From Rubeoparvulum massiliense (GTDB lineage: Bacteria > Bacillota > Bacilli > Rubeoparvulales > Rubeoparvulaceae), in the NCBI RefSeq assembly GCF_001049895.1, contig NZ_CVPE01000006.1:1-64000 (forward strand): a stretch of 64,000 nt of DNA. The letters are read 5' to 3'. Position 1 is the stretch's first letter; each line of letters begins with the position of its first letter. Of this stretch, positions 2,435-64,000 are shown in pieces. Both the position numbers and the translations under genes were made by a program. The notes under the pieces are model-generated. The model saw only the letters and a program-made list of their open reading frames with translations, had not been told where the DNA came from and made no database searches.

Positions 2435-3130
2435 ATGAGTAAAACAGTACATCAAGAAAAGCACTTTGGCGCATCAGACGTAGTACGCGATGTGGTAATC
2501 GGCATGGCAGATGGCTTAACAGTACCATTTGCATTGGCTGCAGGTCTTACCGGTGCTGTAGATTCCACAGGGATCATACTAACAGCAGGTATGGCGGAGA
2601 TCGCTGCTGGTTCTATCGCGATGGGCTTGGGCGGCTACCTCGCTGCAAAATCAGAGAAGGAGCATTATGAATCTGAACGGCGAAGAGAGGAAGAGGAGAT
2701 CATTCATCTTCCTGAGCGTGAGGAAGAAGAGGTTCGAGAGATCTTCCGTGAATATGGTGTAGAGGAGGAGCATCTTGATCCCATCATGGAAGGGATGAAG
2801 CGTAAGCCTGAGAAGTGGGTGGATTTCATGATGCGCTTCGAGCTAGGCTTAGAGGAGCCTGATCCTAAGCGGGGTTTAAAGAGTGCACTCACCATTGCTA
2901 TCTCCTACATTCTCGGTGGATTGATTCCTTTACTACCATACTTTTTCTTTGCTCAGCCCCTTGAGGCTTTAAAGATCTCAGTAGTTGGTACACTGATTGT
3001 GCTCTTTTTATTCGGGGCGTTTAAAGGGAAATTTACTGGGGCTGCTCCGCTGAAGAGTGGGGTAGAGACCATGATCGTCGGCGGAATCGCTGCAGCGGCT
3101 GCCTTTGGTTTAGCCAATCTATTATCATAA
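2435..3130 (+). CDS. VIT1/CCC1 family membrane transporter
   Basis: The 231-residue protein matches the vacuolar iron transporter (VIT1/CCC1) family found in bacteria, which moves Fe2+ or Mn2+ across the membrane. It has the characteristic DVVIGMADGLTVPFALAAGLTGA first helix, the EIAAGSIAMGLGGYLAAKSE second helix, and a central soluble Glu-rich segment (about residues 75-125, e.g. RREEEEIIHLPEREEEEVREI) that forms the metal-binding domain. Three hydrophobic helices follow in the C-terminal half. The start ATG at 2435 has GAGGAGG upstream. The metal is not fixed by sequence alone; iron or manganese is an inference from the family. Confidence 0.88.
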   Translation: MSKTVHQEKHFGASDVVRDVVIGMADGLTVPFALAAGLTGAVDSTGIILTAGMAEIAAGSIAMGLGGYLAAKSEKEHYESERRREEEEIIHLPEREEEEVREIFREYGVEEEHLDPIMEGMKRKPEKWVDFMMRFELGLEEPDPKRGLKSALTIAISYILGGLIPLLPYFFFAQPLEALKISVVGTLIVLFLFGAFKGKFTGAAPLKSGVETMIVGGIAAAAAFGLANLLS

Positions 3131-5170: not shown

Positions 5171-6109
5171 GTGAAACTGGTTACCTTTGAACATAAAGAA
5201 CGAGGAATTGGGGTGGGATGGCTTCGTCACGATGGTGTGGTGGATGGAGGAAAGGCTAGTCAGGGAGAGCTACCCAACAATATGCTACAGCTACTCCAAC
5301 ACTTTCCTCAGCACCTTCAAACCATTCAAGCAATTGACCGAGCGCTTACCGAAGGAGAGGGAGATTTTCTCCTCCCTCTTACGGAGGTTCGATTGCTCCC
5401 ACCACTTCCCAATCCGCGAAGTATTCGCGATTTCTATGCCTTCGAGGAGCATGTAAAAGCAGCACGGGCACGGCGTGGTTTAGCGATGCAGCAAGAGTGG
5501 TATGAACAGCCTGTTTTCTACTTCTCCAATCATCAGGCAGTCATCGGTCCAGAGAATTTGATCTCGCCACCAACAGGTTGTGAAAAGCTAGATTATGAAC
5601 TGGAAGTGGCAGTGGTGATCGGGAAGGAAGGGCAGAATATCCCGTGGCAAGAGGGTGAGCAGTATATGGCTGGCTTAATGATTATGAATGATTGGAGCGC
5701 CCGTGATCTTCAACAGCAAGAAATGCAGGTAGGTTTAGGTCCAGCGAAAGGAAAGGACTTTGCCACCTCGTTAGGCCCCTATCTTGTCACCATGGATGAA
5801 TTGCTTCCTTACCAGCTTGCTCGGTCTCAACGGAAAGGGATGGATTATGCTTTAACCATGGAAGCAAGAGTGAATGGCCATCAGTTATCCAAGGGAAATC
5901 TTTCACAGATCTACTTCACGCTAGCCCAATTAATTGAACAGGCCTCGAAAAATGTAATCCTCTATCCCGGGGATGTTCTAGGAACAGGAACAGTGGGGAC
6001 GGGCTGCCTCTTAGAATTGGGAGAAGAGGTGCATCGTTGGCTACAGCCAGGTGATCTCGTTGAACTGGAAGTATTAGGACTAGGCTGCTTACGAAACCAG
6101 ATCGGTTAG
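5171..6109 (+). CDS. Fumarylacetoacetate hydrolase family protein
   Basis: The 312-residue protein has the FAH fold. The metal and substrate site motifs include DYELEVAVVIGKEG, MIMNDWSARDLQQQEM and GPAKGKDFATSLGPYLVT. In this operon the expected reaction is hydrolysis of fumarylacetoacetate (or maleylacetoacetate) to acetoacetate plus fumarate or maleate, the last step of homogentisate degradation. The start is GTG at 5171, with GGGAGAAATAG upstream. The gene lies 37 bases after the flavin-reductase-like gene and 22 bases before hmgA. Some FAH-family members act on other oxo-acids, so the exact substrate is inferred from context. Confidence 0.9.
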   Translation: MKLVTFEHKERGIGVGWLRHDGVVDGGKASQGELPNNMLQLLQHFPQHLQTIQAIDRALTEGEGDFLLPLTEVRLLPPLPNPRSIRDFYAFEEHVKAARARRGLAMQQEWYEQPVFYFSNHQAVIGPENLISPPTGCEKLDYELEVAVVIGKEGQNIPWQEGEQYMAGLMIMNDWSARDLQQQEMQVGLGPAKGKDFATSLGPYLVTMDELLPYQLARSQRKGMDYALTMEARVNGHQLSKGNLSQIYFTLAQLIEQASKNVILYPGDVLGTGTVGTGCLLELGEEVHRWLQPGDLVELEVLGLGCLRNQIG

Positions 6110-63298: not shown

Positions 63299-63646
63299 AT
63301 GTCCATTGAAATAAAAGATAGTTATGTGCTTGTGGCAGGTTTTGCACAACTGCCCAAGGGTACTCCAGTGTTCGAATTGCAGAAGACCATCGGGTGTATT
63401 CTGATCGTTGATACAGAGAATGATGTGGTTATCCATTCTACATTCACTTTCTTACAGCCATTAACAAATCATTTTATCGGAGCATTGCTCCAAGGGAAAT
63501 CACTACAGAAGATCGATGAGATTATTACTGAGATCGAGAACCGCTTTATTGTTCCTCCCCAGAAGGCAGTGATCCAAGCAATGATTGCAGCGAATAAAAG
63601 CTACCAAGAAAAAATTTTTGATCAAAAAGAAAACGCTTGCAAATGA
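63299..63646 (+). CDS. DUF3870-like small protein
   Basis: The 115-residue product starts with a strand pair YVLVAGFAQLPKGTPVFELQKTIGC and has CILIVDTENDVVIHSTFTFLQPLTNHFI with a helical end. This matches the small DUF3870 family, often found near amino acid or acyl-CoA metabolism genes, of unknown function. AAGGGAAGG precedes the ATG. Its stop codon overlaps the -35 box of the next promoter. Confidence 0.7.
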   Translation: MSIEIKDSYVLVAGFAQLPKGTPVFELQKTIGCILIVDTENDVVIHSTFTFLQPLTNHFIGALLQGKSLQKIDEIITEIENRFIVPPQKAVIQAMIAANKSYQEKIFDQKENACK

Positions 63647-63664
63647 CAGAAAATTCGATATAAT
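63637..63664 (+). promoter_or_regulatory. Strong promoter of the flavin oxidoreductase leader
   Basis: TTGCAA (63637-63642) and a perfect TATAAT (63659-63664) are 16 bases apart. Transcription would start near 63671, giving a leader of about 183 bases. Confidence 0.75.
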
Positions 63665-63670
63665 TTAATT

Positions 63671-63818
63671 GACAACATAAAGCTAGTGTGAAACTGGAAT
63701 ATCTACCGAGGGAAGGACATGAGCTGAACCTCAATCAGTAGATATACAGCCAGTAGCGATAGAAGAGATTAAAATGAAGTTTTTCTTCGTTTAATTTTCT
63801 ATTGCTGCTGGTTTTTTT
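63671..63818 (+). ncRNA. Structured leader with terminator: candidate riboswitch or attenuator, class unknown
   Basis: The leader has nested pairings. CTGG (63694-63697) with CCAG (63750-63753) surrounds ATATCTAC (63699-63706) with GTAGATAT (63738-63745). Inside is GAGG (63708-63711) with CCTC (63729-63732). GCTG (63723-63726) in the loop could form a pseudoknot with CAGC (63747-63750). CCAG is also the base of a long terminator stem (63750 to 63811) followed by seven T. The loop carries ATG AGC TGA at 63719-63727, a two-codon frame behind GAGG. I cannot match it to a known riboswitch. Confidence 0.65.
63750..63818 (+). terminator. Leader terminator upstream of the flavin oxidoreductase gene
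   Basis: CCAGTAGCGATAGAA at the 5' side pairs with TTCTATTGCTGCTGG at the 3' side (one wobble, one mismatch), with further pairing ATTAAA/TTTAAT inside and GTTTTTTTG after. It lies within the leader, so it would attenuate the downstream gene. Confidence 0.8.
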
Positions 63819-63853
63819 GTTTGCAAATTTAATTAATCGAGGAGGTTTTCGAG

Positions 63854-64000
63854 ATGGAGTTCGGTTTGTTTACGGTATTTGATAACTATAAAAATTATAA
63901 GGAAGGCTTTGAACGAACACCGGAACAGCTCTTAAATGAGGTATTAGAGCAGTCCATTCTAGCAGATCGTTTAGGATATGATGCTACTTGGTTTGCGGAG
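63854..64000 (+). CDS. Luciferase-like (LLM class) flavin-dependent oxidoreductase, partial
   Basis: The first 49 codons of a gene run off the window edge. The product starts MEFGLFTVFDNYKNY and contains EQSILADRLGYDATWFAE, the usual N-terminal beta-strand and first helix of bacterial luciferase-like monooxygenases, which use reduced flavin. The substrate cannot be judged from this part. GGAGG lies eight bases before the ATG at 63854. Expression appears to be controlled by the terminator in its leader. Confidence 0.8.
   Translation, partial: MEFGLFTVFDNYKNYKEGFERTPEQLLNEVLEQSILADRLGYDATWFAE

Follow-up and report, generated by a model that had tools for sequence, protein, structure and literature searches.

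The DNA analyzed here (the window) is a stretch of 64,000 nucleotides from Rubeoparvulum massiliense. Near its end, positions 63671-63853 hold a conserved structured leader that finishes in an intrinsic terminator and lies between a gene for a DUF3870 protein and a gene for a luciferase-like monooxygenase (Table 1). The monooxygenase gene heads an operon that continues beyond the window with genes for an FMN reductase, a 318-aa protein, a fumarylacetoacetase, an HmgA-like dioxygenase and an aromatic-acid MFS transporter, and we refer to it as a putative aromatic-catabolism operon. The 318-aa protein (L002:1906-2862, outside the window; motif LIDYAGLFPP) is conserved in nearly all relatives and matched no Pfam or NCBIfam family. 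The original prediction, made from the sequence alone, overlooked the gene immediately upstream, DUF3870, which is probably part of the system. At the other end of the window, a 5S rRNA gene was found at 519-635 (87.7 bits).

Table 1. Features of the DUF3870-leader-monooxygenase region, in window coordinates
Feature	Position	Strand	Basis or detail
DUF3870 (PF12986) gene, 115 aa, proposed trans-acting antitermination protein	63299..63646	+	Pfam; AlphaFold2; Foldseek
cre-like box (GAAAACGCTTGCAA), possible CcpA site	63629..63643	+	seen in sequence; function inferred from CcpA consensus
Promoter for leader, sigma-A type, TTGCAA-16-TATAAT	63637..63664	+	motif scan; relatives
Proposed antiterminator hairpin	63693..63754	+	P1, P2, P3, short P4; ~62 nt
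P1 outer helix, 5 bp, ACUGG/CCAGU	63693-63697/63750-63754	+	coordinates from fold
P2, 8-bp helix	63699-63706/63738-63745	+	coordinates from fold
P3, 4-bp inner helix, GAGG/CCUC	63708-63711/63729-63732	+	coordinates from fold
Intrinsic terminator, 18-19 bp lower stem + U7	63749..63819	+	folding; same overlap in most relatives
Shine-Dalgarno GGAGG of regulated operon	63841..63846	+	sequence
Luciferase-like monooxygenase, 346 aa, operon head	63854..64000, runs past window	+	relatives, Pfam

Folding of the leader from 63676 to 63822 yielded −51.4 kcal/mol compared to a mean of −28.6 kcal/mol for shuffled sequences (z = −6.4), and none of 200 shuffles folded as well. The terminator is made up of a stem at 63749-63812 and a U-tract at 63813-63819, and the 3′ strand of P1 (CCAG) sits inside its 5′ arm, making P1 and the terminator mutually exclusive. 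Because the two structures share this strand, we consider the hairpin to be an antiterminator. When the leader was folded without the terminator 3′ arm, the 8-bp helix and the outer pairing formed, and with that arm present the terminator was favored (−51.4 vs −44.5 kcal/mol with P1 and P2 forced). A hairpin that is mutually exclusive with a terminator is a general criterion of protein-dependent antitermination, and the leader has this arrangement. The nested helices described originally were recovered at 8 bp and, for the inner one, at 4 bp, and the outer helix proved to have 5 bp.

The leader was originally assigned a strong promoter. The two hexamers are present and are found at the same place in three relatives (L009, L010 and L013), with a near match in L008, but the promoter score is not above chance (2 found vs 2.8 expected in shuffles). 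The CcpA consensus is known and is the basis for calling the cre-like box a possible CcpA site; boxes resembling cre also occur upstream in L009, L011, L014 and L019.

Comparison of the leader with Rfam, including its riboswitch and T-box families, gave no family at the gathering cut-off, and a known riboswitch or T-box was rejected on that basis. At E ≤ 10 there were sub-threshold matches only, mostly miRNA-type matches on the terminator stem, and one of the sub-threshold matches was bglG-cis-reg, which scored 20.5 bits against a cut-off of 80 and fell on the terminator stem-loop (63747-63818) and not on the conserved hairpin. An attenuator candidate outside Rfam had been proposed, and the leader remains one. 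Literature searches turned up nothing relevant on antitermination by IscU or on a riboswitch candidate that matches the leader, and the main text of recent noncoding-RNA surveys does not mention monooxygenase or luciferase.

Among close relatives of the monooxygenase, most loci carry the leader. In 14 aligned copies, P1 follows (A/G)CUGG...CCAG(U/C) and P2 follows UUAUCUAY...GUAGAUAA, with variable apical P3 and P4 helices. Building a covariance model from relatives was the check that the original prediction had recommended, and the compensatory changes strongly support a conserved structure. In the first set of 14 copies, both-sided changes occurred in 10 of 20 pairs and none of 500 shuffles reached the covariation score. 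With 33 copies, 14 of 20 pairs had both-sided changes, 93.1% of cells were paired and the covariation score was 0.417, whereas shuffled alignments gave 0.242 and slid structures no more than 0.146; the 33-copy alignment was fitted to the model and the 14-copy alignment was not, and the latter is the cleaner test. The window hairpin scores 75.7 bits against covariance model R1, of whose seed it is itself a member. As anticipated by the earlier claim that the terminator base competes with the outer helix, most relatives have the 3′ strand of P1 inside the terminator 5′ arm. Conservation is concentrated in the stems (1.28 bits in paired columns vs 0.47 in unpaired columns), and the only unpaired column that is at least 80% conserved is an A preceding the 3′ strand of P2. 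A GCUG/CAGC pseudoknot had also been suggested, and we discarded it after finding that just 2 of the 33 aligned copies could form it.

The DUF3870 protein matches PF12986 (E = 1.2e-16; 61.1 bits vs a gathering threshold of 22) and no other Pfam family, and we found no function assigned to DUF3870. An AlphaFold2 model (pLDDT 90.4, pTM 0.83) has the order beta-beta-beta-alpha-alpha-alpha, and the best PDB match from Foldseek was Aquifex IscU 2z7e_B (prob 1.00, E = 3.7e-3, TMq 0.54, 21% identity); in a profile search, yeast Isu1 was matched weakly (E = 0.26). The fold of DUF3870 is predicted to be IscU-like, with a modest fold match. By eye, an IscU-like cysteine pattern was not seen in the DUF3870 alignment. 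A HutP fold was absent among the best Foldseek matches and was dismissed. To our knowledge, the IscU scaffold is not known as an RNA regulator. A beta-rich Bacteroides domain (3kog) has been assigned to PF12986/DUF3870 (PMC4387736), and this domain does not fit the IscU-like model obtained for the Firmicutes proteins.

In most relatives, DUF3870 is the gene just upstream of the leader. The 270 nt that follow DUF3870 stop codons in other genomes contain the hairpin and then a terminator that uses the P1 3′ strand as its 5′ arm, and this architecture was found behind DUF3870 genes in many Firmicutes, including in operons unrelated to the monooxygenase operon. Scanned with a fixed geometry, the 420 nt behind the gene contained hairpin and terminator for 23 of 38 GFA-type DUF3870 genes and for 15 of 18 GDAQ-type genes, and the same scan was positive after 22 of 532 other genes, approximately seven of which are genuine extra RNA copies. 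GDAQ-type genes precede peptide ABC transporters and a DppA-like aminopeptidase, and the RNA behind them has the form GCUG-c-UUUAUUUA...UAAAUAAA-acc-CAGC. The GHA, GYA and GDAK subtypes mostly lack a downstream hairpin, and therefore the DUF3870 family as a whole does not consist only of this kind of regulator. Behind GDAK-type genes (L074, L081, L118, L123 and L124) there is mostly a CCAG-type terminator and no hairpin was recognized; the element there is perhaps reduced or different. Downstream RNA is mostly absent from GHA-type genes (L045-L048, L060, L062, L082, L083 and L125), some of which lie near genes of acyl-CoA metabolism, and the function of these proteins may be different.

We asked how the RNA and the protein are distributed over 399 sampled Bacilli genomes. 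DUF3870 was present in 107 of them and model R2 matched in 32, of which 29 were among the 107. Of the three exceptions, G103 and G391 lack a terminator and are chance matches, and G259 (E = 0.0035) was assumed to be another, in line with the roughly four chance matches expected at the R2 threshold. All 29 convincing carriers of the RNA have DUF3870, usually encoded adjacent to it (Fisher test by genome, p = 1.1e-18, or 2.9e-15 with the three exceptions counted as real; by genus, 8e-7). In a phylum sample outside Bacilli, six new genomes matched, and only G729 and G516 had both hairpin and terminator; these are also the only two of the six with DUF3870. R1 or R2 matches in G123, G103, G391, G403, G444, G638 and G652 were set aside as chance, judged to be without a terminator or inside coding regions, and the R1 match in G123 is antisense within a coding region. 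With laxer filters, the RNA was recovered in 7 of 13 GFA-type genomes that had no earlier match, with some GFA-type genomes still negative, and in none of 25 control genomes, comprising 17 taken as GHA-only (a subtype judged from scores, with loci read for some) and eight negative for DUF3870.

Co-occurrence of this kind could also arise by pathway confounding, with the RNA tracking homogentisate-type genes. HmgA orthologues, 61-73% identical where the match was full-length, occur in 11 of 79 DUF3870-negative genomes and in 16 of 56 genomes with other subtypes. No R2 match was obtained even at E ≤ 2 at the HmgA loci without GFA-type DUF3870 (0 of 24; flanks of several kb for 20 of them and of ~1.5 kb for the other four). 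We conclude that the RNA tracks the protein and not the pathway, because the RNA is missing from HmgA loci that lack the matching DUF3870 subtype, and pathway confounding is thereby ruled out. Two leaderless relatives of the monooxygenase, from Melghirimyces and Thalassobacillus, likewise gave no R2 match at E ≤ 2; the former has no DUF3870 and the latter has one of the GHS/GHA-like type.

In some genomes there are several RNA sites to one DUF3870 gene. The L014/L073 cluster has RNAs at 5638, 5840, 8322 and 9958 (L014 coordinates) and one DUF3870 gene, and the RNAs stand before successive units of the pathway. In G213, G195 and G374, the RNA lies before fumarylacetoacetase-HmgA genes that are megabases from any listed DUF3870 gene. 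Multiple sites per gene and distant sites suggest that DUF3870 would act in trans. Further copies precede a fumarylacetoacetase-type gene (L067) and, in the Clostridia-like G729 and G516, a glycyl-radical enzyme gene and other genes named by inspection. Some copies have their own peculiarities. The first two in L014, which is from Aneurinibacillus danicus, form a tandem before the monooxygenase gene, each with its own terminator (5638-5920); an extra copy at L011:4365-5411 stands before a RibF-like (FAD synthetase-like) gene, a similar gene being present in the L018 and L064 clusters; and identical, equally scoring copies at L064:259-340 and 2971-3052 flank an unrelated ORF, as after duplication or insertion.

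Based on these results, we propose that the leader is a protein-dependent antiterminator controlled by its cognate DUF3870 protein, the product of the gene directly upstream, an assignment that we consider likely. A dedicated partner that is linked to the RNA and co-occurs with it is a further criterion of protein-dependent antitermination, and DUF3870, the putative regulator, is linked and co-occurs in this way. By default, the nascent RNA would fold into the terminator and transcription would end before the operon. Active DUF3870, probably bound to a substrate-linked inducer, would bind and stabilize the P1-P2 hairpin, which would keep the CCAG strand from pairing in the terminator and allow RNA polymerase to enter the catabolic genes. 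RNA binding by DUF3870, induction as the direction of control, and the effector are all inferred parts of this model.

HutP of Bacillus subtilis is a small regulator whose gene directly precedes the hut leader with its terminator, and DUF3870 is likewise a small gene just before the terminator-bearing leader of a catabolic operon. HutP recognizes NAG repeats (PMC7430163), whereas the leader described here has a conserved hairpin and DUF3870 matches no HutP family in Pfam and is predicted to be IscU-like. In the BglG family, LicT and SacY stabilize a RAT hairpin that competes with an intrinsic terminator in inducible catabolic operons (PMC7430163). The present leader resembles these systems in having a hairpin that competes with an intrinsic terminator before a catabolic operon, and stabilization by a protein is what we propose; it differs in that the partner is DUF3870, which has only PF12986 in Pfam and no CAT or PRD domain, and in that the hairpin, at ~62 nt with P1-P2-P3, has no match in Rfam. 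The predicted fold of DUF3870 gives a modest match to that of the IscU/SufU iron-sulfur scaffolds, but no IscU-like cysteine pattern was seen by eye and its genomic partner is an RNA and not an iron-sulfur operon.

We considered a small-molecule riboswitch, an ON switch with a terminator that would respond to a pathway metabolite, with DUF3870 as a co-inherited pathway or accessory protein. Competition between a compact conserved hairpin and a terminator is seen in many riboswitches, terminator-type orphan riboswitches likewise have a conserved 5′ leader in which an antiterminator is followed by a terminator, and the tandem pair in L014 and the catabolic context would also fit. However, almost no unpaired nucleotides are conserved, the convincing copies are all in DUF3870 genomes, HmgA loci are devoid of RNA where the matching subtype is missing, and the occurrence of the same architecture behind DUF3870 in peptide-transport and glycyl-radical clusters is hard to fit to one ligand. 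The riboswitch of the original prediction is accordingly poorly supported; we regard it as unlikely, and as a weaker reading than antitermination by DUF3870. That prediction had also offered ribosome-mediated attenuation, in which a two-codon ORF in the loop (ATG AGC TGA) would serve as a stalling sensor. The window does contain ATGAGCTGA at 63719-63727 behind a purine-rich stretch, but the mini-ORF is found in this copy alone among the 33 aligned, and such a mechanism is extremely improbable.

A hairpin that overlaps a terminator arm is the design of a RAT, and the sub-threshold bglG-cis-reg match might be taken to indicate an unlinked antiterminator (LicT/BglG, GlpP or similar) that binds the hairpin while DUF3870 senses or makes its signal. 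That match covers the terminator stem-loop and not the hairpin, and both co-occurrence and gene adjacency favor DUF3870 itself, leaving such an arrangement quite improbable.

For the proteins themselves, we think it somewhat probable that part of the DUF3870 family makes up a widespread and as yet undescribed class of antitermination proteins that bind RNA, respond to an effector and have an IscU-like fold, each acting on a conserved P1-P2 hairpin, and that across Firmicutes the cassette has been put to repeated use in aromatic, peptide-transport and glycyl-radical operons. If the pairing of RNA and protein is right, part of a widespread family acquires a testable role. The short list of antitermination proteins with a known RNA partner (LicT, HutP, GlpP and others) would gain a new entry, an IscU-type fold would have been turned into a gene regulator, and aromatic, peptide and glycyl-radical operons would be identified as under one control device.
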